From contig NKIM01000016.1 in assembly GCA_002255955.1 (NCBI GenBank), positions 62,001 to 126,000 of the forward strand: a stretch of DNA of 64,000 bases, given 5' to 3'. The position numbers were made by a program, and so were the translations under genes. The notes under the pieces are model-generated. The model was given only the letters and a program-made list of their open reading frames with translations. It ran no database searches and had not been told where the DNA came from. This stretch comes from Burkholderiales bacterium PBB2 (GTDB lineage Bacteria > Pseudomonadota > Gammaproteobacteria > Burkholderiales > Burkholderiaceae_C). This document shows positions 2,645 to 15,658 of the stretch, piece after piece (the first letter of the stretch is position 1; each line of letters opens with the position of its first letter).

Positions 2645-3793
2645 TCAGTGCTTGGCGCCGCTGTCCAGCAAGACCTGCGGGTTGAAGTCGTAGCGGCGCA
2701 GGCGCGGGTTGTGCACCTTGCTGAAGCGGCGGAAATCCAGCTCGCGCAGGTCGGGGCGGGCCAGGAAGCGCTGCGCCGCAGCGCGGTCGAAGCGCATGAA
2801 CAGGGGCCGCTCCAGGCTCAGGCCTTCGTCGATGAAGTCGCGGCCTTGGTGCAGGTCGTGCAGCATCACCAGGGCGAAGGCGCCGGTCAGGAAGTGGCCG
2901 CCGACCAAGGCCGAGAGGCGGCCGTCGATCAGGGCCTGCATGGCCTCGTCCGAGGTGTTGATGGCGGCGAACAGCAGATCACGGCCGGGCTTGAGGGCCC
3001 GGCTTTCAGCGGCTTCCATGGCCCCGAAGGCCATCAGATCGCTGCCGGCCCAGACCAGCTGCGGCGCCGCGCCGCGCTGCAGCAGGCCCAGCATGCGCTC
3101 GCGCGCCTGATCACGGCGCCAGTCGGCAAAGGTCTGCGCATCCAAATCGACCTGCGGATGCTCGGCCAGAGCCTGGCGCAGGCCCTGGTTGCGCTGGATG
3201 GAGCTGGGTGTGGAGCGATCCCCGGCGATGGACACCAGGTGCAGGCGCCCATCGGCGCCGTGCAAGCGTCGCGCCAGGCCTTGTTCGAGCAAGGCTCGGC
3301 CGCTCAGGTAGCCCGCGTCCTGGGCGCGCGGCTCCAGGCTGCCCACCAGCAAGGGCAGGCCGCGGCGCGGGCTGAAGCGCTGCTGCTCCTGCGGCAGCAG
3401 GCCCGAGAAGGCCGCAAAACTCTTGATGCCCGCCGCCGCCAGGTTCTGGGCGCAGGCCACCAGCACGCCTTTGTCATTGCTGAGCACGACATAGTCCGGG
3501 CGCTGCCCGGCGGGCCGCTGCGCCAGTTCGCGGCTCAGGGCGACGGTGCGTTCGGGGTCACGCTCGGCGTACAGCACCTCAAGCTTGAGCCCCAGGCTGC
3601 TCGCTGCGGCCTCCATGGCCTGGCTGGCGCTGCGCCAGAAGGCCTCGTCGGCATGGCCCGGGTTGATGAAGGCGATGCTTTGCGCCTGCAGCGGCGCGGC
3701 CAGCAGGAGCAGCCCGAGTGCAGCGAGAGCAGGCGGAGCCGAGCGTAGGGCGCGGAGGACGGCGTGGCGCAAGCAACGCAAGAGGCGAGACAT
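2645..3793 (-). CDS. Periplasmic sugar-binding-type protein (ABC transporter or sensor partner), orphan
   Basis: A 382-residue exported protein of the type I periplasmic binding fold (ribose/galactose-binding, LacI-like). After a signal peptide (LRSAPPALAALGLLLLAAPLQAQS) comes IAFINPGHADEAFWR, matching the first strand of Peripla_BP proteins. DYVVLSNDKG, LVWAGSDLMAFGAMEA and LLFAAINTSDEAMQALIDGRLSALVGGH are the usual hinge and ligand-pocket regions. The start is ATG 3793, whose next residues lead straight into the signal peptide; the extra 13 codons upstream look non-coding. It is separated by 106 bases from the sugar ABC operon upstream and has no permease of its own. It may feed a distant transporter or a periplasmic sensor domain. 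Ligand unknown. Confidence 0.75.
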   Translation of the reverse strand: MSRLLRCLRHAVLRALRSAPPALAALGLLLLAAPLQAQSIAFINPGHADEAFWRSASQAMEAAASSLGLKLEVLYAERDPERTVALSRELAQRPAGQRPDYVVLSNDKGVLVACAQNLAAAGIKSFAAFSGLLPQEQQRFSPRRGLPLLVGSLEPRAQDAGYLSGRALLEQGLARRLHGADGRLHLVSIAGDRSTPSSIQRNQGLRQALAEHPQVDLDAQTFADWRRDQARERMLGLLQRGAAPQLVWAGSDLMAFGAMEAAESRALKPGRDLLFAAINTSDEAMQALIDGRLSALVGGHFLTGAFALVMLHDLHQGRDFIDEGLSLERPLFMRFDRAAAQRFLARPDLRELDFRRFSKVHNPRLRRYDFNPQVLLDSGAKH

Positions 3794-3899
3794 GTCGGGG
3801 CCGTTGTGCACCTGGCGGCGCGAGCGAAACAAGTCGCCATTGTCGGCTTGTTTTCAGCCCCGTCCGGCGCCGTCGGAACCGGGGGCCCCGGCCCGGCGC

Positions 3900-4942
<1,043 letters not shown>

Positions 4943-4946
<4 letters not shown>

Positions 4947-5920
4947 AACGAGACCCTTTCGATGCGAAGGTGGGGGCGTGGTGCGGCGGCGCCGGGAATG
5001 AGGCGGGCGATGCGATGTGAGCTTGGGCGCGCGGGGGCTGGGGGCAAGGGCTGCAGGCGGTACAGCGCGGCTGGGGCGTAGTCGCGATGCACGCGCTCCA
5101 GCAGCTCCAGGATGCGCGCTTCGTCCACCTCCGGCTCGGGGCCGCTCGAGGCCTGCTGCGCCAGGCGATGCGGCAACACGGCCAGGAAGTCGCAGGGGCT
5201 GGCCATGCTGCGCAGGTCGCCGGGCAGCACCGTGGGCGCGTCCACGCCCAGGGCTTGCAGCACATCGCCGGGGTAGCCGCGGCCGAACAGCGGGTCCAGC
5301 CACCAGCGGTTGCGCAGTCCGTCCTGGCGCAGGGCGGTGGCGAGGTCGGCCGGGAGATGGCTGGCCGGGCGTATGGCTTGCAGGCTCAGCACGATGCCGA
5401 CCCGGGCACCTGGTGCTGCGCTGCGCAGGGCGCGCAGCGCCTCACCATGGCTGACCAGCCGGTGGTGAGCGATTTGCAGCTCGGTGTGCAATGCGCGCGC
5501 CAGGGCCTGCGGATGCGTGGTCGTCTGAGCCGGGTTTTCGTGGGTGATCCAGTGCCCCACCCGGTCACCGAGCTGCTCTCCCATCAGCCGGGCAAAGTCA
5601 GCAAAAGCACCGATGGTCGAACGTTTCATCCAGCCGCCCTGCGCCTGCAGCGCCGGGGGCAGCTCGCCCTGGTGCAGCGTCACCCAGGGCTGCTGGCCCT
5701 GAGCCAGCAAGGCGTCCACCTGGCGCGAGACTTGGCCCAGGGCGTCGGCATCGGGTCGGGCACCCATGCCCTTGGGAAAAATGCGGGCCCAGTCGATGGC
5801 GAGATGGCAAGCCGGCGACTCCGGCGCTGAGCCCGGGCCGGCCGCGCCCAAGGCTGTGGCGCCACTCCGGTGGTCGGGCCATAGCGATGTGTTTTGGGCG
5901 AGATGCCGGCTGACCTGCAT
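4943..5920 (-). CDS. GH1-like protein lacking both catalytic glutamates (probable pseudoenzyme)
   Basis: A 325-residue protein that resembles a glycoside hydrolase family 1 beta-glucosidase but is shortened at both ends. Recognisable GH1 segments are HLAIDWARIFPKG (residues 39-51), VDALLAQGQQPWVTLHQGELPPAL, GGWMKR, GDRVGHWITHENP (118-130) and RWWLDPLFGRGYP (205-217). The acid/base motif, THNEP in the neighbouring true enzyme, reads THENP here, so Asn and Glu are exchanged. Where the neighbour has LYITENG, this protein has LYRLQPL, with Gln290 at the nucleophile position. It then ends in a Pro/Arg-rich tail without the last barrel strands. The frame is intact and coupled to the genes on either side, which argues against simple decay. 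A binding, regulatory or scaffold role is possible; hydrolysis is unlikely. Confidence 0.7.
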
Positions 5921-5923
5921 GGC

Positions 5924-6835
5924 TCAGTCCTCTTTGTAAATGCGCACCCAGTCGACCCGCATTTCGGCCGGGAAGGGCGTGCTGGCATCGGGGTTGCCGG
6001 GCCAATCACCGCCGACGGCGAGATTGAGGATGACGAAGAAGGCGCGCTCGAACACCCAGGGTGCACCCGCGGGCAGGCCGGCCGGCGTGAGGCGATGGAA
6101 CTCGACCCCGTCGACCAGCCAGATCAGCTCCTGCGGACGCTTGATCAGGGTGAAGACATGAAAGTCCTCGGACAGCGGCTTGGCGTTGACGAAGCGTTTG
6201 CCGATGCCTTGGGCACCCGAGTAACCCGGACCATGGACGGTGCCGTAGGCATGGAGTGGCTCCTTGCCGATGTTCTCCAGCACGTCGATTTCGCCGGCGG
6301 CGGGCCAGGGCAGCTTGTCCTCGCCCAGGGTCCAGAAGGCCGGCCAGATGCCGGGGCCGCCGGGGATCTTGATGCGGGCTTCCAGCTTGCCGTAGCTGAA
6401 GCTGACCTTGCCGTCGCTGCGCAGGCGGCCCGAGCTGTACTCGCAAGGCTTGTCGTTCCAGCAGGGGCCGGCGTTGGCTTGCTTCTCGGCTCGCAGCAGC
6501 AGGTTCCCTTGGCCGTCGAGTGCGGCATTGCGGGCCGCCTGGGTGTAGTACTGCAGCTCGTGATTGCCCCAGCCATTGGCTTCCTTGTTGCCGAGGTCGT
6601 AGTTCCAGTGCTTGGCATCGGGCAAGGTGCCGGCCGCGCCTTCGAACTCATCGGCCCAGACCAGGGTCCAGCGATTGGATGGCGCAGGGGCAGGGGCTGG
6701 CGATGGAGCCGGGGCAGGGGCCGGAGCAGGTGTCGGAGAAGGCGAGGCTGTCGCGCCGCCGCCTCCGCAGGCGACCATCAGCGAGGCCAGGGCGGCCATC
6801 AGCGGCCGGGTGGGGTGCAGGGCAGCGTGGTGCAT
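5924..6835 (-). CDS. GH16 beta-glucanase (laminarinase-like) lipoprotein
   Basis: A 303-residue exported endo-beta-glucanase of glycoside hydrolase family 16. The N-terminus is a lipoprotein signal with lipobox MVAC (Cys23), then a Gly run and an Ala-Pro linker at residues 31-53. The catalytic domain has WADEFEG, the substrate-site segment WGNHELQYYT and the catalytic motif GEIDVLENIG (nucleophile Glu182, Asp184, acid/base Glu187). FWTLGE and HAYGTVHGPGYS are typical of laminarinase-type GH16. It probably cuts beta-1,3-glucan at the cell surface or in the periplasm. It lies 9 bases after the GH1 enzyme and 3 bases before the GH1-like gene, inside the ABC operon. Laminarin as substrate is inferred from the family; mixed-linkage glucan is an alternative. 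Confidence 0.86.
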   Translation of the reverse strand: MHHAALHPTRPLMAALASLMVACGGGGATASPSPTPAPAPAPAPSPAPAPAPSNRWTLVWADEFEGAAGTLPDAKHWNYDLGNKEANGWGNHELQYYTQAARNAALDGQGNLLLRAEKQANAGPCWNDKPCEYSSGRLRSDGKVSFSYGKLEARIKIPGGPGIWPAFWTLGEDKLPWPAAGEIDVLENIGKEPLHAYGTVHGPGYSGAQGIGKRFVNAKPLSEDFHVFTLIKRPQELIWLVDGVEFHRLTPAGLPAGAPWVFERAFFVILNLAVGGDWPGNPDASTPFPAEMRVDWVRIYKED

Positions 6836-6844
6836 GGCAGTGCC

Positions 6845-8215
6845 TCAGCCTTGGGCGCGCCACTGGCGCAGCAGGTCTTGGTACCAGAGCGCGCTGGCCT
6901 TGAGCGTGCGCACCTGGGTGTCGTAGTCGACATGGACGATGCCGAAGCGCTTGGAGTAGCCAAAGCCCCACTCGAAGTTGTCCATCAGGCTCCACACCAT
7001 ATAACCGTCCACCCGCACGCCACGGCGGCGGGCCTCGGCGGTGGCGGCGATGTGGGTGCGCAGGTAGTCGAGCCGGTCCAGGTCGTGCACATGGCCGTCG
7101 ACCACGGTCTGGTCGGGGAAAGCGCCGCCGTTCTCGGTGATGTAGAGCGGCGGCATGTCGGGGTAGTCGGCGTGCATGCGGCAGAGGATGTCGGTCAGGC
7201 CCTCGGGGTAGACCTCCCAGTCCATGTCCGAGGCGGGCAGGCCGTGCTCGCGCGCGACCCAGGGCTTGCCGTCGGCGTTGACCACGTAGCGGGTGTAGTA
7301 GTTGATGCCCAGGTGGTCCATGGGCGCGCGCATGGCGGCCATGTCGCCGGCTTCGATCTTGGGGGCATCGGCGCCCAGGTCGGCCAGGGCTTCGGCCGGG
7401 TACTCGCCCTTGAACAGCGGGTCGCTGTACCAGCGGCGGCTTTTGGCATCGGCCAGGCGGGCGGCGGCGATGTCGGCCGGGTGGGCAGTGGCGGGCACGC
7501 TGGGGCCCATGTTCAGGACGATGCCGAGGTTCTTGCAGCCACCTTCGGCGCGCATGGCTTGCATGGCCAGGCCGTGGCTGAGCAGCAGGTGGTGCGAAAC
7601 CTGCGCCGCCAGCGCGCGGTCGCGCAGGCCCGGCGCGTGCACGCCTTGATCATGGCCCAAGGTGGCGGTGCACCAGGGTTCGTTGTGGGTGGACAGGGCG
7701 AAGAGCCGGTCGCCCAGATGCTTTTGCACATGGCGGGCGTAGTCGACAAAGCGGTGCACCGTGTCGCGCGCAGCCCAGCCGCCTTGCTGGTCTTGCAGGG
7801 CTTGCGGCAGGTCCCAGTGGTAGAGCGTGGCCACCGGCTTGATGCCGCGCGCCAGCAGGCCGTCGACCAGGCGCTCGTAAAAGCCCAGGCCGGCGGCGTT
7901 CCACTCACCCCGGCCCGTGGGCTGGATGCGTGGCCAGGCCAGCGAGAAGCGGTAGCAGTTGACGCCCAGCGAGGCGATCAGGTCCAGGTCCTGTTCCAGG
8001 CGATCGAAATGCTCGCAGGCGGTGTCGCCATTGCTGCCGTCGGAGATGGCGCCGGGCTGGCGGCAGAAGCGGTCCCAGATGGATTCGCCGCGGCCGTCGA
8101 CATGGGTTGCGCCCTCGATCTGAAAGCTGCTGGTGGCCACGCCGAACAGGAAGTCGGCCGGGAAGCTGGCGGGAACGTCAGCCGATGAGGTGGAGGTGTG
8201 AGTTGCAGCGGACAT
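6845..8215 (-). CDS. GH1 beta-glucosidase
   Basis: A 456-residue GH1 retaining beta-glucosidase that would release glucose from imported beta-glucosides. Motifs are FLFGVATSSFQIEGA (residues 22-36), YHWDLPQAL, the acid/base motif THNEP with Glu179, the nucleophile motif YITENGG with Glu361, and WSLMDNFEW near the C-terminus. No signal peptide is visible, so it is probably cytoplasmic and works behind the ABC importer. The ATG start at 8215 shares its A with the stop codon of the permease gene. The much longer open frame up to 8899 is the shadow of that permease. This intact copy is the reference for judging the degenerate GH1-like neighbour. Confidence 0.93.
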   Translation of the reverse strand: MSAATHTSTSSADVPASFPADFLFGVATSSFQIEGATHVDGRGESIWDRFCRQPGAISDGSNGDTACEHFDRLEQDLDLIASLGVNCYRFSLAWPRIQPTGRGEWNAAGLGFYERLVDGLLARGIKPVATLYHWDLPQALQDQQGGWAARDTVHRFVDYARHVQKHLGDRLFALSTHNEPWCTATLGHDQGVHAPGLRDRALAAQVSHHLLLSHGLAMQAMRAEGGCKNLGIVLNMGPSVPATAHPADIAAARLADAKSRRWYSDPLFKGEYPAEALADLGADAPKIEAGDMAAMRAPMDHLGINYYTRYVVNADGKPWVAREHGLPASDMDWEVYPEGLTDILCRMHADYPDMPPLYITENGGAFPDQTVVDGHVHDLDRLDYLRTHIAATAEARRRGVRVDGYMVWSLMDNFEWGFGYSKRFGIVHVDYDTQVRTLKASALWYQDLLRQWRAQG

Positions 8216-9048
8216 TATTTGACAGCGCCAGCGGTCAGACCGGCGATCAGTTGGCGGGATGAAATGACGAAGAGGACGATCAGGGGCAGGGTCGCAATGG
8301 CCGAACCGGCCATGATGGCGCCCCACTCGGTGTTGACGGTGGCCTGCAAGCTGCGCAGGGCCAGGGGCAGGGTGTAGCTCTCGGCCTGGCGCAGCACCAC
8401 CAGCGGGGCCATGAAGTTGTTCCAGGAGGCGATGAAGGTGATCAGGCCCAGGGTGCCCAGGGCCGGGCGCAGCAGAGGCAGGGCGATGCGCCAGTAGATG
8501 CCGAACTCGCTGCAGCCATCCATGCGCGCGGCCTTGAGCAACTCCATGGGCACCGAGGCGGCCGCGAATTGCCGCACCAGGTAGATGCCGAAGGCGCCGG
8601 CCGCGCCGGGGATGTAGAGCGCGCGGTGGGTGTCCAGCCAGCCCAGGGCATCCATGACCATGAAGTTGGGGATCATGGTCATGAAGGGCGGCACCAGCAG
8701 GGTGCCCATGACGAGCAGGAACAGCGGCTGCTTGAAGCGGAACTCCAGCATGGCAAAGGCATAGCCGGCCATGGAGCAGAACAGCAGGGTGAGAACCGTG
8801 GACATCAGCGCCACGTAGAGGCTCCAGCCCAGATTGCGCCAGAAGGGCAGGCGGGTGGTCAGGGTCTGCAGATTGCGGCCCAGTTCGCCGTCGAACCACA
8901 GCGGCGGCGGCACATTGAAGATGGCCGCGTTCGATTGGGTGGCGAACACGAACATGAAGTAGAAGGGCGCCAGCATCAGTAGGGCACCGCCACCGACCAG
9001 CAGATAGGCGGCCCCACGTGAGAGGGTTTTTGTCGACAGGCGGCTCAT
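8215..9048 (-). CDS. Sugar ABC transporter permease (MalG type)
   Basis: A 277-residue inner-membrane permease with about six hydrophobic segments, starting GAAYLLVGGGALLMLAPFYFMFVFAT. The EAA loop reads MELLKAARMDGCSEFGIYWRIALPLLRPALG, the typical site contacting the ATPase. It ends LIAGLTAGAVK, as MalG/LacG-like proteins do. It overlaps the preceding permease by four bases (ATGA at 9045-9048) and the following GH1 gene by one base. It pairs with the MalF-type permease. Confidence 0.92.
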   Translation of the reverse strand: MSRLSTKTLSRGAAYLLVGGGALLMLAPFYFMFVFATQSNAAIFNVPPPLWFDGELGRNLQTLTTRLPFWRNLGWSLYVALMSTVLTLLFCSMAGYAFAMLEFRFKQPLFLLVMGTLLVPPFMTMIPNFMVMDALGWLDTHRALYIPGAAGAFGIYLVRQFAAASVPMELLKAARMDGCSEFGIYWRIALPLLRPALGTLGLITFIASWNNFMAPLVVLRQAESYTLPLALRSLQATVNTEWGAIMAGSAIATLPLIVLFVISSRQLIAGLTAGAVK

Positions 9049-9956
9049 GGCTTGCGATCCTTGAAAGCGCGGTTGGTCAGCCAGGTCATGGTGGCCAGCA
9101 GGGCGAACAGCAGCCAGGAGATGGCGTTGGCGGCGCCGAAGTCGCTGAAGTCAAAGGCCAGGCGGTAGACGTAGATGGCCACCGTCATGGCGGCCTGGTC
9201 GGGGCCGCCGCGGCCGTTGGTCAGAATGAACGGTTCTTCGAAAAGCTGCATGCCACCGATGATGCTCAGGGTTATTCCAAACAGCATCATGGGCTTGAGC
9301 GCCGGCAGGGTGATGTAGCGGAAGCAGGACCAGGATCCCGCGCCGTCCAGCTTGGCGGCTTGATACAGCTCGCGCGGAATGGTCTGCAGGGCGGCCAGGT
9401 AGAGCACCAGGTTGAAGCCGACATAGCGCCAGAACACCACCATGGCCACGGCCGGCTTGAGGGTCTGCGGCTGCCACAGCCAGTTGATCGCCTCCATGCC
9501 GAAGGCCCACTTGAGCATGGCGTTGATCAGGCCGTAGTCGGTGGACAGCAGGGAGGTGAACATCATGGCGATGGCCACTGTCGAGGTGATGTAAGGCAGG
9601 AAGTAGGCGGCCGCGACGCTGTGGCCGTGGCGCCCGAAGGCGCGGTTGATGAAGACGGCCAGCGGCAGGGCCACCAGATGCTGGGGCAGGCCCGAGAACA
9701 CGGCCAGCCAGAGCGTGTTGCCCAGGGCTTTCCAGAACCAGGCATCACCCAGCACAAAGATGAAGTTCTCCAGGCCGGTGAAGCGCATGGCCTCCAGCCC
9801 GGCCGTGGGTTCCCAGCTCTGGAAGGCCATCCACAGCGAGAACAGCAGGGGGAACAAGCCGAAGATCGAGAACAGCGCCAGGAAGGGGCTGAGCAGCAGA
9901 TAGGGCACCCAGGCGCGGGGCAGGCGAAATGACGGACGCGTCTTTTTCATCATCAT
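9045..9956 (-). CDS. Sugar ABC transporter permease (MalF type)
   Basis: A 303-residue inner-membrane permease of the MalF/LacF kind. Hydrophobic segments begin with WVPYLLLSPFLALFSIFGLFPLLFSLWMAF. The EAA loop is PRELYQAAKLDGAGSWSCFRYITLPALKPMM, followed by GGPDQAAMTVAIYVYRLAF, a usual ending of this subunit. The start region has three successive ATG codons (9956, 9953, 9950). The first overlaps the stop of the binding-protein gene as TGATG and was taken. The longer frame to 10124 lies inside the binding-protein gene. Confidence 0.9.
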   Translation of the reverse strand: MMMKKTRPSFRLPRAWVPYLLLSPFLALFSIFGLFPLLFSLWMAFQSWEPTAGLEAMRFTGLENFIFVLGDAWFWKALGNTLWLAVFSGLPQHLVALPLAVFINRAFGRHGHSVAAAYFLPYITSTVAIAMMFTSLLSTDYGLINAMLKWAFGMEAINWLWQPQTLKPAVAMVVFWRYVGFNLVLYLAALQTIPRELYQAAKLDGAGSWSCFRYITLPALKPMMLFGITLSIIGGMQLFEEPFILTNGRGGPDQAAMTVAIYVYRLAFDFSDFGAANAISWLLFALLATMTWLTNRAFKDRKP

Positions 9957-11251
9957 CACCGCGTGGCCCTGTGAACCAGCAAGGCCTGGGCATCGGCCAG
10001 GGCCTTGGGAATGGACTTGCCGTAGATCAGCACGTTGTCGAGCTCGCCATTGACCACCTCCTCGGCGAACTTGTTCTGCCGGTGCAGGGGCCGTGCGGGG
10101 ATGCGGCGGGCCGCGTCGCGCCACAACTGGCGGGCGCGTTGGCCGCCGAGGAAATCGACCGGTTCGTCAAAGAAGGGGTCGTCCTGGGCGCTGAGCAGGG
10201 CGGGGAAGGCGTCCTGGTTCTTGAAGGCGCTGAGCTGCAGCTCGCGGCTGAGAGTCAGGTGCTGGATCAGCGACCAGGCCAGGGCTTTGCGGCTGGGGTC
10301 GGAGCGGCGCGGGATGGCGTAGTAGCTGCCGCCCCAGCCGCCGAAGCTGCCGCCGGGCAGCTGGGCCGCGCGCCACAGGCCATGGGTGTTGGGCGCCACC
10401 GATTTGGCCATCTGGCTGGCCATCCAGGCGCCCGAGAGCTCGGTCGCCAGCTTGCCGCGGCGCAGGTGTTCGCTCCAGTCATTACGCCAGGTGTCGACGA
10501 TGGCGTCCAGACCCAGGCGCCGCACTTTTTGCGCCAGCTCGAAGGCACGCTGGAACAGCGGGCTGCTGATGCTGGGCCGGCCTTGGGCGTCGAAGTAAAT
10601 GCTCTGGCCGGCCGGGGTGCTGGAGAACAGCACGATGTCCTTCAGGTAGCGTGCATGCGCCAGCAGGTAGGCGCCGGTGCGGGCCTTGATCTGCACGCCG
10701 GCCTGCACGTAGGCCTCCCAGCTTTCGCTCAGGTCCTTCAGGCCCAGGCCGGCGCGCTCCAGCACATCGGCGCGGTAGAACATCGAGCCCGGGCCGATGT
10801 CGGCGGGAATCGCCACCACCGCGCCCTCGCGGTTGCGCGCTTGCTCAAAGGCGAAGGGCACGAAGCGTTCGCGCAGGCCTTCGGCCAGATAGGGCGGAAC
10901 AGACAAATCCTGCAGGCCGGCGCCCAGCGAGAAGCGGCCCATGTACATGGTTTCCAGCGCGATCACATCGGGCAGATGGCTGGCGCTGGCCGAAGACAGG
11001 GCCGTGGTCATGGCCGTGTGGTGGTCGTCGTACTGGCGGCTGATCACCTCGACCTGCACACCGCCATGCGCCTGACTCCAGGCGGGCAGGGCCTGCTTGA
11101 TGACCTGGTCCAGCAGCGGGAAGGCCGCGACCACCAGCTGCTGGCGCTGTTGCTGCGCGCTCTGGGCCGGCACCTGGCCGGCCAGCGGCGCCAGCGCCGC
11201 GGCCGCCAGCAACTGGCGCCGACGCGTGTCGGGTGACTTGTCTCGTGTCAT
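9956..11251 (-). CDS. Sugar ABC transporter substrate-binding protein (extracellular family 1), possible Tat export
   Basis: A 431-residue periplasmic binding protein, first gene of the sugar ABC operon. The N-terminus TRRRQLLAAAALAPLAGQVPAQS has an arginine cluster followed by a hydrophobic stretch, compatible with a Tat signal although the motif is not ideal. The mature part has the family 1 features YDDHHTAMTTALSSASASHLPDVIALE, LPGGSFGGWGGSYYAIPRRS and AWSLIQHLT. The ATG at 11251 was chosen because the signal peptide follows at once; the 56 codons upstream cover the operator and promoter. A perfect 14-bp palindrome lies 23 bases before the start. Confidence 0.88.
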   Translation of the reverse strand: MTRDKSPDTRRRQLLAAAALAPLAGQVPAQSAQQQRQQLVVAAFPLLDQVIKQALPAWSQAHGGVQVEVISRQYDDHHTAMTTALSSASASHLPDVIALETMYMGRFSLGAGLQDLSVPPYLAEGLRERFVPFAFEQARNREGAVVAIPADIGPGSMFYRADVLERAGLGLKDLSESWEAYVQAGVQIKARTGAYLLAHARYLKDIVLFSSTPAGQSIYFDAQGRPSISSPLFQRAFELAQKVRRLGLDAIVDTWRNDWSEHLRRGKLATELSGAWMASQMAKSVAPNTHGLWRAAQLPGGSFGGWGGSYYAIPRRSDPSRKALAWSLIQHLTLSRELQLSAFKNQDAFPALLSAQDDPFFDEPVDFLGGQRARQLWRDAARRIPARPLHRQNKFAEEVVNGELDNVLIYGKSIPKALADAQALLVHRATR

Positions 11252-11319: not shown

Positions 11320-11413
11320 GCCGCGTAAACCCTAGTGGGACAAGCGCGGGGGGCGCGGCGTGGCCGTCCCTGGGGCCGCCTACACTGTCCAGCCCCCGTG
11401 GAAAGGACCGTCT

Positions 11414-12460
11414 GTGCAAGCCAAACCCGCAGCCAAGAAAGCGCCGTCAAGCCGAGCGGAGGGCGTGGTCACGCTCGAGCAGGTGGCGGCCCGGGCCGGG
11501 GTCTCGCCCAGCACGGTCTCGCGCATCCTCAATGGCACGGCCACGGTCAGCGAGCTCAAGCGGGCAGCGGTGGACGAGGCCATCCGCACCCTCGGTTTCC
11601 GCCCCAACCCGGTGGCGCGCGGCCTGGCCGGCGGGCGCACCATGAGCATCGGTGTGGTCACGCAGCGCATCAGCAGCCCGTTTTACGGCGAGGCGCTCAG
11701 CGGCATCGAGGTGGAGCTGGAGTCGGCCGGCTACGTGCCGCTGTTCGTCAGCGGCAACTGGAACGAGGCCGATGAGCGCAAGGCCATCGAGACCTTGCTG
11801 TCGCGCCGCGTGGACGGCGTCATCGTGCTGGCCGGCCGCCTGGACAACCGCGAGCTGGAGGCCTTGTCCGACAGCGTGCCCATGGTGGTGGTGGGTCGTC
11901 AGGTGGCGGGCGAGCGCCTGTTCAGCTTCAGCTTCGACAACCGCGCCGGCGCGCGCCTGGCCACCGAGCATCTGATCTCCCTGGGCCACCGCCGCATTGC
12001 GCTCTTGCTCGGCGATCTGATCCACGACGATGCCATCGATCGCCAGAACGGCTACTTCGATGCGCTGGCGGCGGCCGGCATTCCGGTCGAGCAGGAACTG
12101 ATTGTGCAAAGCGATTACACCGAGGCCGGCGGCATGCTGTCGGTCAGCCGCCTGATGGAGCGCGATGTGGCCTTCAGTGCCATCTTCAGCTCCAACGACC
12201 AGATGGCTTACGGCGCCATCCTGGGCCTGGCGAGGCGCAATCTGCGCGTGCCGGACGATGTCTCCATCGTCGGCTTCGACGACCTGATCATGTCGCGCTA
12301 CACCATGCCGCCACTCAGCACGGTGCGCCATTCCGTCTATGAAACCGGCGCCCAGGCGGCCGGTGCCATGCTCAGCCTCTTGCGCGGCGAGCGCCCGGCG
12401 GTGCAGCTGGCGGCGCCGGAGCTGGTGCTGCGCGAATCGGTGCGCCGGGCCATCCGCTGA
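11414..12460 (+). CDS. LacI-family transcriptional regulator
   Basis: A 348-residue sugar-responsive repressor. The N-terminal helix-turn-helix and hinge helix read VTLEQVAARAGVSPSTVSRILNG (residues 19-41) followed by FRPNPVARGLAGGRT. The effector domain has the Peripla_BP-like pattern IGVVTQRISSPFYGEALSGIE, VDGVIVLAGR, NRAGARLATEHLISLGHRRIALL, AIFSSNDQMAYGAI and DVSIVGFDDL. The start is GTG 11414, preceded by a GGAAAGGA Shine-Dalgarno stretch and giving a normal length; the frame is open to 11360. It is divergent from the ABC operon and just upstream of the TonB receptor gene. It is the obvious candidate for binding the three palindromes. The inducer is unknown, probably a beta-glucoside or glucose-containing disaccharide. 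Confidence 0.92.
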   Translation: MQAKPAAKKAPSSRAEGVVTLEQVAARAGVSPSTVSRILNGTATVSELKRAAVDEAIRTLGFRPNPVARGLAGGRTMSIGVVTQRISSPFYGEALSGIEVELESAGYVPLFVSGNWNEADERKAIETLLSRRVDGVIVLAGRLDNRELEALSDSVPMVVVGRQVAGERLFSFSFDNRAGARLATEHLISLGHRRIALLLGDLIHDDAIDRQNGYFDALAAAGIPVEQELIVQSDYTEAGGMLSVSRLMERDVAFSAIFSSNDQMAYGAILGLARRNLRVPDDVSIVGFDDLIMSRYTMPPLSTVRHSVYETGAQAAGAMLSLLRGERPAVQLAAPELVLRESVRRAIR

Positions 12461-12673: not shown

Positions 12674-15658
12674 ATGAGAAATCCTCGACCCGTCACTCGT
12701 TTGTCCCGTTCGGCAAGCGCGGTGGGCTTGCTGGTGGCCAGCCTTGGCGCCCAGGCCCAGCAGGCCACGCCGCCCGCCGATACCAACAAGGCTCAGCTCG
12801 ATGCCGTCGTCGTGACGGGTATTCGCCAGAGTCTGGAGACCTCCCTCAACCTGAAGCGCAATGCGCGCGGCCTGGTCGACGGCATCGTGGCCGAAGACAT
12901 CGGCAAGTTCCCGGACACCAATCTGGCGGAGTCCATGCAGCGGATTTCGGGTGTGTCCATCGACCGCAGCAACGGCGAAGGCTCCAAGGTCACCGTGCGC
13001 GGCGTCGGCCCTGATTTCAACCTGGTGCTGCTCAATGGTCGCCAGATGCCCGCCTCCAGCATCGGTTCGACCTTTGCCTCCAATTCCCGCTCTTTCGACT
13101 TTGCCAACCTGGCGTCAGAAGGCGTGGCCGCCCTCGAGGTCTACAAGACCAGCCGGGCCGAGAGCCCCACGGGCGGCATCGGCGCCACCATCAACATCAA
13201 GACCGCCCGCCCGCTGGACAACAAGCAGCGTCTGGCCAGTGTCGGTGTGAAGCTGGTCAGCGACGACTCGAACAAGCGTCTGCCCGACAGCCTCAGCGGC
13301 AGCCAGCTGACGCCTGAGGTTTCGGGCATTTATAGCGACGTTTCGGCCGATGGTCGGTTCGGTATTGCCCTCATCGGCAGCATCCAGAAACGCAATGGCG
13401 GTTACAACCAGGCCGCAGTGGACGCCGGCTGGCGCACCTTCAAGGGCGATGAGCAGAACTGGGGCACCATTCCGCTTCCGGGTCAGCCGGGTGCCGACAA
13501 GATCACCAACCGCCCCAAGCCGACCGATCTGTATGTGGTGCCGCAGGAACTGCGTTACAGCCTGAACGCATTTGAGCGCACCCGCACCAACGGCCAGCTC
13601 GTGCTGCAATTCCGCCCGGTCCAGGATGTGACCGCCACGGTGGACCACACCTACTCGGAAAACAAGATTCACTCCAAGCGCAGCGAGCTGTCGGCCTGGT
13701 TCAATTTCGGCCCGTCCTCCTCGGCCTGGACCAATGGCCCCATCGCTGCACCGCTGACGTACACCGAAACCTACCCCGCCAACGGCCCCGCCGATGTGGC
13801 CATGGCTGGCAGTATTTTCGGCACCAAGAACAAGAACCAGTCCACCGGTGTGAACCTGGCTTGGAAGGCCAGCCAAGCCCTGAGCCTGGAATTTGATGCC
13901 CATCACTCCACGGCCACCTCGGGCGCCGACAGCCCGTTCGGCAGCAACTCGACTCTGGGCGTGTCGATGTACAACCGCGCCAGCGCCTCGGCCGACTTCT
14001 CGCAAAAGTTTCCGGTGCTGAGCATCGGTCTGGCCGGCGACCCCGCCGCCAGCCCCAGCCTGCTGCAAGTGACGGGTTCGTCCTTCCGCAACAGCTATAT
14101 GCGCAATCAGATCGACCAGGCGCAGTTCAAGGGCAAGTATGTGCTGTCCGAGAGCTCCGGTCTGGATTTCGGCGTGGGCATGACCAAGGTCAAGAACCGC
14201 ACCGCCTTTGCCAATGTCCAGCAGGACGACTGGGGTGGCCACAACAAGCCCAGTGACTATCCGGATACCCTCTGGCAAGCCGCGCAGCTGCAGAGTTATT
14301 TCGGCCATTCGCTCGGCAGCAATGGCGGCAATCTGTTCAACAACTTCTACCTCTGGGACTTCAATGCCGTGCGTGCCGCGGCCATCAAGGCCGATGGCAG
14401 CGACAAGTGGTTCGTGCCTTCGTACAACTTCACCGACGACCGGCGCACGCAGGAAAAGTCCAGCCACGCCTTCCTCCAGTACGGCAAGGACTGGGAGTGG
14501 GGCGTGCCCATGAACGCCACGATCGGTTTGCGCTACGAGCGCACCGAGGTCTATTCCCAGGCCCTGGTGCCCAAGGTGACCGGCATCAATTGGGTGTCGG
14601 CCAACGAGTTCGCCTTGGTCAAGGGGGCGGCCGATTTCACCGCGCTTTCCGGCAAGTACAACTATGTGCTGCCCAGCATCGACTGGGAGGCTGAGCTCAG
14701 CGACAAGGTCAAGATTCGCGCCAGCTATGGCGAGACCATCGGCCGACCGGACTGGGGTGCGATCCAGGGTGGCATCACCCTGTCGGACTTCCGTGTCAAC
14801 GGCGGCTCCGGCAGCCAGGGCAATCCGAGCCTGAAGCCGCTGCTGTCCAAGAATTTCGATTTCTCGGCTGAGTACTACTACGCCAAATCGAGCTATGCCT
14901 CGCTGTCGTTGTTCCGTAAGAACATCAGCAACTTCATTGGCACCAGCAGCACTCAAGCCACACCGGCAGGCCTGACTTCGCCGATCGGCGGGGCGTTGTA
15001 CAACGAAGCGGTCAGCAAGAACTGCCCGACCAAGGACGCTGCCTGCATCCGCAACTACATCCTCAACACCTACAACGGCAGCAAGGGCGTCGTTCGCACC
15101 GGCTTTGATGGCAATGGCAACCCGCTGGGTACCATCGCCGGCCAGGTGGGTGATCCGCAGGCCAGCTTCACCATCACCGCGCCGACCAACCAGCGCAGCG
15201 ATTCCATCAAGGGCATGGAGTTCAACATCCAGCACGCTTTTGGCAAGTCGGGTTTTGGCCTGGCCGCCAACTACACCTGGGTGCGTTCGGGCCTGAAATA
15301 CGACAACCTCAACCTGAAGGAGCAGAACGCACTGCTGGGACTGAGCAACTCGTCCAATTTGGTGGGTTTCTACGAGGACGACAAGTACAGCGCCCGCGTG
15401 GCCTACAACTGGCGTGGCGAGTTCCTGAGCAGCACCAGCGCCGATGTGTTCGGCAGTGCAGGTCCGGCTTATACCGAGGCCTACGGTCAATGGGACCTCA
15501 GCTTGGGCTATAAGTTCAACAAAAAGCTCAGCTTCAACTTCGAAGCCCTGAACCTGAACGACGGCACCCAGCGCGTTCACGGGCGTGCCAAGGAGGAAAC
15601 GCTGTACTTCACCCAGACCGGACGCCGCTACATGCTGGCCGCCCGCTACGCCTTCTGA
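12674..15658 (+). CDS. TonB-dependent receptor (Caulobacter/Xanthomonas type), probable glycan uptake
   Basis: A 994-residue outer-membrane receptor with signal peptide (SAVGLLVASLGAQAQQ). The TonB-box-like region LDAVVVTGIRQSLETSL leads into the plug domain: VAEDIGKFPDTNLAESMQRISGVSIDR, then KVTVRGVGPDFNLVLLNGRQMP. This is the pattern of the large TonB receptor subfamily often linked to plant or algal glycan uptake in Xanthomonas and Caulobacter. The C-terminus LYFTQTGRRYMLAARYAF ends in the expected beta-strand with terminal Phe. The start has GGAGA ten bases upstream. Two LacI-type palindromes precede it. SapC, cupin and halogenase genes follow within a few bases and are probably cotranscribed. 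The substrate is inferred from the GH16/GH1 genes nearby. Confidence 0.93.
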   Translation: MRNPRPVTRLSRSASAVGLLVASLGAQAQQATPPADTNKAQLDAVVVTGIRQSLETSLNLKRNARGLVDGIVAEDIGKFPDTNLAESMQRISGVSIDRSNGEGSKVTVRGVGPDFNLVLLNGRQMPASSIGSTFASNSRSFDFANLASEGVAALEVYKTSRAESPTGGIGATINIKTARPLDNKQRLASVGVKLVSDDSNKRLPDSLSGSQLTPEVSGIYSDVSADGRFGIALIGSIQKRNGGYNQAAVDAGWRTFKGDEQNWGTIPLPGQPGADKITNRPKPTDLYVVPQELRYSLNAFERTRTNGQLVLQFRPVQDVTATVDHTYSENKIHSKRSELSAWFNFGPSSSAWTNGPIAAPLTYTETYPANGPADVAMAGSIFGTKNKNQSTGVNLAWKASQALSLEFDAHHSTATSGADSPFGSNSTLGVSMYNRASASADFSQKFPVLSIGLAGDPAASPSLLQVTGSSFRNSYMRNQIDQAQFKGKYVLSESSGLDFGVGMTKVKNRTAFANVQQDDWGGHNKPSDYPDTLWQAAQLQSYFGHSLGSNGGNLFNNFYLWDFNAVRAAAIKADGSDKWFVPSYNFTDDRRTQEKSSHAFLQYGKDWEWGVPMNATIGLRYERTEVYSQALVPKVTGINWVSANEFALVKGAADFTALSGKYNYVLPSIDWEAELSDKVKIRASYGETIGRPDWGAIQGGITLSDFRVNGGSGSQGNPSLKPLLSKNFDFSAEYYYAKSSYASLSLFRKNISNFIGTSSTQATPAGLTSPIGGALYNEAVSKNCPTKDAACIRNYILNTYNGSKGVVRTGFDGNGNPLGTIAGQVGDPQASFTITAPTNQRSDSIKGMEFNIQHAFGKSGFGLAANYTWVRSGLKYDNLNLKEQNALLGLSNSSNLVGFYEDDKYSARVAYNWRGEFLSSTSADVFGSAGPAYTEAYGQWDLSLGYKFNKKLSFNFEALNLNDGTQRVHGRAKEETLYFTQTGRRYMLAARYAF

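Follow-up and report, generated by a model that had tools for sequence, protein, structure and literature searches.

On the evidence of its sequence, a 325-residue protein encoded in an ABC sugar-import operon of a Paucibacter-like bacterium is a maintained pseudoenzyme derived from a GH1 enzyme, and not the product of a decaying gene. Its gene lies on the minus strand of the window (the whole stretch of 64,000 nucleotides analysed here), between the genes of a GH16 enzyme and a MalK-type ATPase, and truncated orthologues are present in three of 18 genomes of the genus: that of the window (G000), G002 and G009. We favour, with a probability of about one half, a role for this protein, hereafter pseudo-GH1, as a scaffold that contacts another protein via its conserved helices, and that would neither hydrolyse sugars nor bind them in the old GH1 pocket.

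The operon and its truncated GH1-like gene

The frame runs intact from an ATG at 5918-5920 to a TGA at 4943-4945. In order of transcription, the operon codes for a sugar-binding protein, two permeases, a GH1, a GH16, pseudo-GH1 and the MalK-type ATPase, and is accompanied by a LacI regulator, divergently oriented, and by a TonB-dependent receptor. The family membership of the GH16, the GH1 and the receptor points to beta-glucan use. The features are given below, with the evidence for each in brackets.

4943..5920, minus strand: pseudo-GH1 gene (Pfam GH1 profile positions 76-292 of 453; orthologues in G002 and G009; omega)
5813..5920, minus strand: leader, residues 1-36, poorly conserved (beyond the Pfam GH1 match; omega 0.40; pLDDT)
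5537..5812, minus strand: core I, residues 37-128, conserved; predicted strands beta2-beta4 and helices (omega 0.072; model elements)
5480..5536, minus strand: former acid/base loop, residues 129-147, variable, with indels (omega 0.50; alignment)
5057..5479, minus strand: core II, residues 148-288, conserved; predicted beta5 to beta7, with the beta6/alpha6 deletion (omega 0.058; alignments)
4943..4960, minus strand: last codons (ERVSF) and stop; likely MalK ribosome-binding site, overlapping the TTG start (GAAAGGG, by eye)
3900..4946, minus strand: MalK-type ABC ATPase (Pfam ABC_tran, TOBE_2)
5924..6835, minus strand: GH16 enzyme with a lipobox-like N-terminus, by eye (Pfam PF00722; translation)
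6845..8215, minus strand: the operon's own full-length GH1, with motifs THNEP and ITENG (Pfam, 504.1 bits; translation)
8215..9048, minus strand: ABC permease 2 (Pfam BPD_transp_1)
9045..10067, minus strand: ABC permease 1 (Pfam BPD_transp_1; start picked by eye within a longer frame)
9956..11239, minus strand: sugar-binding protein of the importer (Pfam SBP_bac_8; listed frame to 11419, start provisional)
11360..12460, plus strand: divergent LacI-type regulator (Pfam LacI, Peripla_BP_3)
12674..15658, plus strand: TonB-dependent receptor (Pfam TonB_dep_Rec_b-barrel, Plug)

A separate periplasmic binding protein gene (Peripla_BP_4; 2645-3832 of the window) adjoins MalK, as it also does in G002 and G009.

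GH1 descent and loss of the active site

GH1 (PF00232) is the only Pfam family found in the protein. The match is significant (128.5 bits, E 3.2e-37, cut-off 22.6) and aligns residues 39-248 with profile positions 76-292 of 453, which makes pseudo-GH1 a GH1 protein by descent; the neighbouring GH1, with which it shares 38% identity over 268 alignment columns, matches positions 3-449. Against the NCBIfam BGL equivalog (TIGR03356) it scores 161.5 bits, below the cut-off of 478.5.

The catalytic motif of the active homologues is lost in all three orthologues. The acid/base Glu of TxNEP is absent, the motif reading THENP (residues 126-130 of the window copy), THDDP and THDDA in G000, G002 and G009, and the column of the nucleophile Glu of TENG holds Q (Q290), R and S, respectively. 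Strands beta1 and beta8 are missing, so the complete eight-stranded barrel is absent as well, and about 14-19 residues are deleted at beta6-alpha6 (14 relative to the neighbouring GH1, 19 relative to the GH1 on contig C65 of the same genome). The initial annotation had described an intact frame with a reversed Asn-Glu pair, Gln290 at the nucleophile position and missing terminal barrel strands, all of which we recover. It had also named restored catalytic Glu residues in orthologues as a sign against a pseudoenzyme, and we see none in either of the other two.

Conservation was counted over 54 full-length active GH1s, with the very long-branched L022_G011 omitted. Of the columns conserved at 95% or more, 87 align with residues of the window protein, and 40 of those 87 are unchanged in all three orthologues; some of the 87 belong to the leader or tail, for which the alignment is unreliable. 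At 27 columns conserved at 80% or more in 26 parent-type GH1s, the three orthologues share another residue. Most of the hydrophobic core is retained: of the 52 GH1 core columns that are strongly hydrophobic, 47 stay so.

The losses extend over the sugar-binding pocket. In the numbering of the C65 GH1, we take the -1 subsite to involve R90, H134, W135, N178, E179, N305, Y307 and E365, and further Q33, W412, E419 and W420. Each of the first eight, which lie in the aligned core, is replaced in all three orthologues (in the order G000/G002/G009): R by H; H by Q/Q/R; W by G; N by E/D/D; the acid/base E by N/D/D; N by L/R/R; Y by H/Q/Q; and the nucleophile E by Q/R/S. Under these assumed roles, the -1-subsite contacts of a glycan-binding pseudoglycosidase are thus not retained at any of the eight positions. 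The counterparts of W412, E419 and W420 would fall within the missing C-terminal segment. In two orthologues, the Q33 column is occupied by the leader residue Gln2; this pairing is probably an alignment artefact, given that the remainder of strand beta1 is absent, and Q33 has no reliable counterpart. Six of the eight pocket positions differ among the orthologues, against 59 of 246 other positions between residues 37 and 290 (Fisher p 0.004), and with loop 129-147 left aside the figures are 5 of 7 against 45 of 228 (p 0.005), both tests being post hoc since the pocket positions were picked from general knowledge of GH1 enzymes once the alignment had been seen. Being both replaced and variable, the old pocket is gone and is not conserved for a common ligand.

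These results bear on the earlier suggestion of a sugar sensor or carbohydrate-binding protein, which would have lost catalysis, kept the binding of beta-gluco-oligosaccharides and reported to the transporter or a regulator. Its setting in an importer operon with a GH16 and a GH1 speaks for such a protein, as does the frequent retention of glycan binding by pseudoglycosidases described in a section of PMC7828330. However, the replacement of the eight core positions, the loss of the W412/E419/W420 segment and the differences between orthologues at six of the eight make it unlikely, and a sensor using the GH1 pocket finds no support in our data. A new site elsewhere on the surface of pseudo-GH1 is conceivable.

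Purifying selection on the core

Identity to the window copy is 73% for the G002 orthologue and 67% for that of G009 (MAFFT alignment), and the frame is open, with no internal stops, in all three. Under a three-taxon codon model (G000, G002 and G009; 2dlnL against omega=1), omega is 0.134 for the whole gene (2dlnL 243) and 0.064 for the core (2dlnL 263), as expected of a pseudoenzyme that is kept by selection and not decaying. A dN/dS near 1, which had been proposed as the mark of plain decay, is therefore far from what we measure, and the idea of a catalytically dead GH1 relative maintained in the operon is borne out by the core omega together with the absence of the catalytic Glu from all three species.

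Constraint is unevenly distributed. The leader varies freely or nearly so (2dlnL 4.0), and in the former acid/base loop 2dlnL is 0.7. For residues 289-318, the omega of 0.096 is unusable because synonymous change is saturated (tree dS 11, tree dN 1.1), and the last seven residues are too few for an estimate. Runs of 11-23 invariant residues occur in the core at 99-121, 157-172, 178-188, 191-213, 231-247 and 268-278, several of which coincide with helices of the predicted structure, although with three orthologues known the invariance of single residues is weak evidence. Variable core sites number 32, 25 and 113 at the first, second and third codon positions. This concentration of changes at third positions, together with the one to seven stops that each of the other five frames holds per orthologue, led us to reject constraint by another reading frame.

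Pseudo-GH1 evolves faster than the five operon genes compared with it. Control omegas in the same genomes are 0.026 for the GH1, 0.014 for a permease, 0.032 for the binding protein, 0.047 for the GH16 and 0.067 for MalK; that of the BMP-type binding protein gene beyond MalK is 0.078 (dS 1.7). Protein identity among the three species is 67-74%, as opposed to 90.5-99.6% for five other operon genes, and tree dS is 2.0 as opposed to 0.30-1.1; in synonymous divergence the BMP-type gene comes close to pseudo-GH1. Fourfold-site divergence between G000 and G002 reaches 0.26-0.47 in thirds of the gene, compared with 0.07-0.19 for GH1, GH16 and MalK and 0.18-0.23 for the BMP-type gene. The high synonymous divergence could stem from weaker codon selection or from the exchange of divergent alleles, and a minor role, or one to which the protein is still adapting, would also agree with the faster evolution.

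A decaying pseudogene with a frame left open by chance would be in keeping with this faster evolution, with the truncation of both ends, the internal deletion and the lost active site, and with the absence of the gene from sister genomes. We nevertheless regard it as highly improbable in view of the strong departure of the core from neutrality, the lack of internal stops in three species and the preponderance of third-position changes.

Predicted structure

AlphaFold2 models were built from five sequence rows, two of which are full-length GH1s and may pull the model towards the GH1 fold. Confidence is middling for the window protein (mean pLDDT 61.1, pTM 0.65; 31.7-61.1 over the five models) and similar for the G002 orthologue (62.6 and 0.66). 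Both models contain six strands corresponding to beta2-beta7, with helices between them, plus one further short strand towards the C-terminus. In the window model, pLDDT averaged over ten residues is 73-90 for residues 41-130 and 151-180, 73-76 for 231-250, and low in the leader (25-27 over 1-30), the loop, residues 182-211 and the tail. Foldseek matches this model best to GH1 glucosidases (E 4.6e-19, TMq 0.61, rmsd 4.7), and the 50 matches listed are GH1-type glucosidases by title, a few titles consisting only of a name. The models thus support a GH1-type partial barrel, without proving independent folding. The invariant runs span the predicted helices after beta3, beta4, beta5 and beta6 as well as strand beta5, that at 191-213 lying mostly within the low-confidence stretch 182-211.

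Another reading is a relocated site at or near the mouth of strands beta2-beta4, where C38, H39, D43 and H83 together with H127 would form a metal, ligand or catalytic site of a different chemistry. The first four are fixed in all three orthologues and occur in none of the 54 active GH1s at those columns, and in the model they lie in or just past strands 37-42 and 77-82, with H127 closing strand 123-127. However, invariance is the rule in the core when three orthologues are compared (59 of 246 non-pocket positions vary), and by strand alternation H83 may point outward; we consider such a site quite improbable. If true, the importer operon would have acquired a regulator that binds a metal or a ligand, or else a new enzyme, fixed by selection following a burst of change.

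Junctions with the flanking genes

In the window, the GH16 stop and the pseudo-GH1 ATG are 3 nt apart, and the last codon and stop of pseudo-GH1 (TTTTGA) contain the TTG start of MalK. This stop/start overlap is found in all three species. In G000 and G002, a likely ribosome-binding site, AAAGAGGA (by eye), lies in the GH16 tail directly before the pseudo-GH1 ATG. The tight contact on this side is common to G002 but not to G009, where a gap of about 150 bp holds a dispersed repeat of about 130 bp, so the tight packing at the 5' end is not conserved. The overlap or near-contact with both neighbours pointed out in the initial annotation therefore holds in the window and, on the MalK side, in all three species, but fails on the GH16 side in G009.

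The repeat is palindrome-like, about 120-130 bp long, with ends GTTTTTC...GAAAAAC (L033:6755-6885, on contig C5 of G009), and looks REP- or MITE-like. It also occurs on G000 contig C38:61767-61885, just ahead of the window start, and has 20 matches in G000, at least 40 in G009 and 7 in G002, some of them partial; its G009 core has no match inside the window. The first third of the GH16 gene (window 5924-6835; L033:6896-7810) shows a fourfold-site difference of 0.44-0.47 between G009 and G000/G002, and the remainder one of 0.10-0.31, so this first third is a possible recombination patch.

The codons for ERVSF likely serve as the MalK ribosome-binding site, which would explain the invariance of the last residues by MalK; we have accordingly set aside their conservation as a protein feature. 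This site and the stop/start overlap in all three species would also suit a frame that matters only for carrying ribosomes to the MalK TTG start. Coupling of this kind would not conserve amino acids 37-288, though, and in four genomes without pseudo-GH1 the MalK gene also has a similar G-rich site ahead of it and begins with the identical TTGAGCC, so MalK does not need pseudo-GH1. We find this explanation very doubtful.

Origin and distribution

In the sister operon of G007, G008, G012 and G015, the gene is absent and MalK follows GH16 with 50-74 bp from stop to start; in G013, whose operon is more distant, there is no pseudo-GH1 beside MalK either. The four empty sites suggest that the gene was gained. 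Absence from close relatives had been put forward as evidence of decay, and it is indeed what we see in the four sister-operon genomes, but it is probably the outcome of a single gain before the three species diverged and not of losses, a direction that we infer; a less simple alternative would be a gain with subsequent losses in other lineages. In the G008 sister operon (L086:10681-11761; G008:C1:1433173-1434237), LacI matches in two overlapping pieces and the MalK match holds one TAG, so this operon may be broken or contain sequencing errors.

In a GH1 tree of 58 rows, the three pseudo-GH1s form one group (100/100) with a stem of 1.24 changes per site and terminal branches of 0.03-0.15. Together with 26 C65-type GH1s they make up one side of a branch (100/100), within which the long stem leaves their exact placement unsure. 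In the four genomes looked at (L088-L091; in G000, contig C65), C65-type GH1s lie near permease-like genes and a second MalK, and both the operon GH1 and a C65-type GH1 are present in all three species. An origin as a tandem duplicate of the neighbouring GH1 was rejected: forcing the pseudo-GH1s to group with the seven operon GH1s lowers the log-likelihood by 50.9 units (AU p 0.00027). Among parent candidates, the AU test does not reject an own-genus group of six (p 0.37) and gives p 0.10 for a G013/G016/G017 group (all AU tests without L022_G011 and the duplicate L003_G000). By its sequence affinities, pseudo-GH1 goes back to the type of GH1 found in a second sugar operon and not to its neighbour. 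In the simplest history, the single gain would be followed by a long burst of change, in which both ends were lost, and then by constraint.

Searches of wider collections added little. A search of genome contigs returned three loci, G002, G009 and L053, the last of which is a weak match (28%, E 1e-5) that we deemed unrelated by eye from the frame at the locus. With up to five candidates scored per genome, the frames found in 21 of 399 genomes of a family sample (E 1e-50) and in 6 of 399 of an order sample (E 1e-60) all have at least 454 codons, except the window gene. Among viral contigs, 12 stretches matched the pattern for GH1 relatives and none was confirmed; among plasmids, 859 records matched, all below 60% identity and none with 80% query coverage.

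A proposed role as a protein-binding scaffold

We propose that, in the ancestor of the three Paucibacter-like species, a copy of a GH1 gene of the second-sugar-operon type came to lie between GH16 and MalK, cut down to roughly beta2-beta7, and that, after a phase of rapid change, purifying selection came to hold it. Pseudo-GH1 would be translated from the operon transcript, in which its stop overlaps the start of MalK, and would fold as a partial barrel in the cytosol, together with the GH1 and MalK; by eye, its N-terminus does not resemble a signal peptide. Candidate partners would be the operon GH1, another GH1 copy, MalK and the LacI regulator; the GH or ATPase partner suggested in the initial annotation may thus be among them. 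With constraint on the scaffold helices and a variable leader, tail and former catalytic mouth, the conservation pattern is the reverse of that expected for a GH1-type sugar sensor, and this leads us to favour protein binding over sugar sensing.

A narrower form of the scaffold role would make pseudo-GH1 an inhibitory or stabilising subunit in mixed oligomers with a GH1 enzyme. Pseudo-GH1 retains the scaffold's helices and its hydrophobic core, and possible partners, the operon GH1 and the C65-type GH1, are encoded in all three species; oligomerisation of GH1 enzymes is taken here as general background. We regard this form as tentative, and on balance rather unlikely.

Relation to known pseudoenzymes

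If our reading of a protein-binding scaffold is correct, pseudo-GH1 would be a clear example, in bacteria, of a glycosidase that has become a non-catalytic protein, with the parent type, the empty sites, the burst of change and the later constraint all readable within one genus. It would make testable, in a small operon, how a barrel fragment devoid of its ends and its pocket gains a selectable function. It would also be a warning for annotation, in that short GH1 matches in sugar operons may be working non-enzymes and not broken genes.

The closest known proteins are GH1 beta-glucosidases (PF00232; TIGR03356), to which pseudo-GH1 is homologous over about 210-250 residues and whose barrel it is predicted to share in part. 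The nearest solved structures are Td2F2 (3wh5) by sequence and UnBGl1 (9j3y) by fold; unlike these enzymes, pseudo-GH1 has neither acid/base nor nucleophile, nor beta1 and beta8. No bacterial GH1 pseudoenzyme, truncated or otherwise, appears among the papers listed from the open-access literature, as judged by titles and abstract starts, and a term search of PMC10211241 finds no passage on glycosidases.

Non-catalytic glycosidase relatives are known from other families as well. The GH18 protein YKL-39 has a complete fold; in contrast, pseudo-GH1 is devoid of about half of the landmark columns and of the old pocket. YKL-39 is non-catalytic and binds chitooligosaccharides, and pseudoglycosidases are treated as an accepted class, in excerpts of PMC7828330. 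According to a portion of PMC6549527, GH28 pseudoenzymes of beetles act in the same pathway as their active kin. Within GH1, alpha- and beta-Klotho carry inactive GH1-like repeats and take part in FGF receptor complexes through protein binding (PMC7828330, in part), and Klotho chains are among the sequence matches of pseudo-GH1. The Klothos are animal receptors with tandem GH1-like repeats, whereas pseudo-GH1 is one truncated bacterial domain, a single protein of 325 residues with one partial GH1 match and, by eye, no membrane segment.
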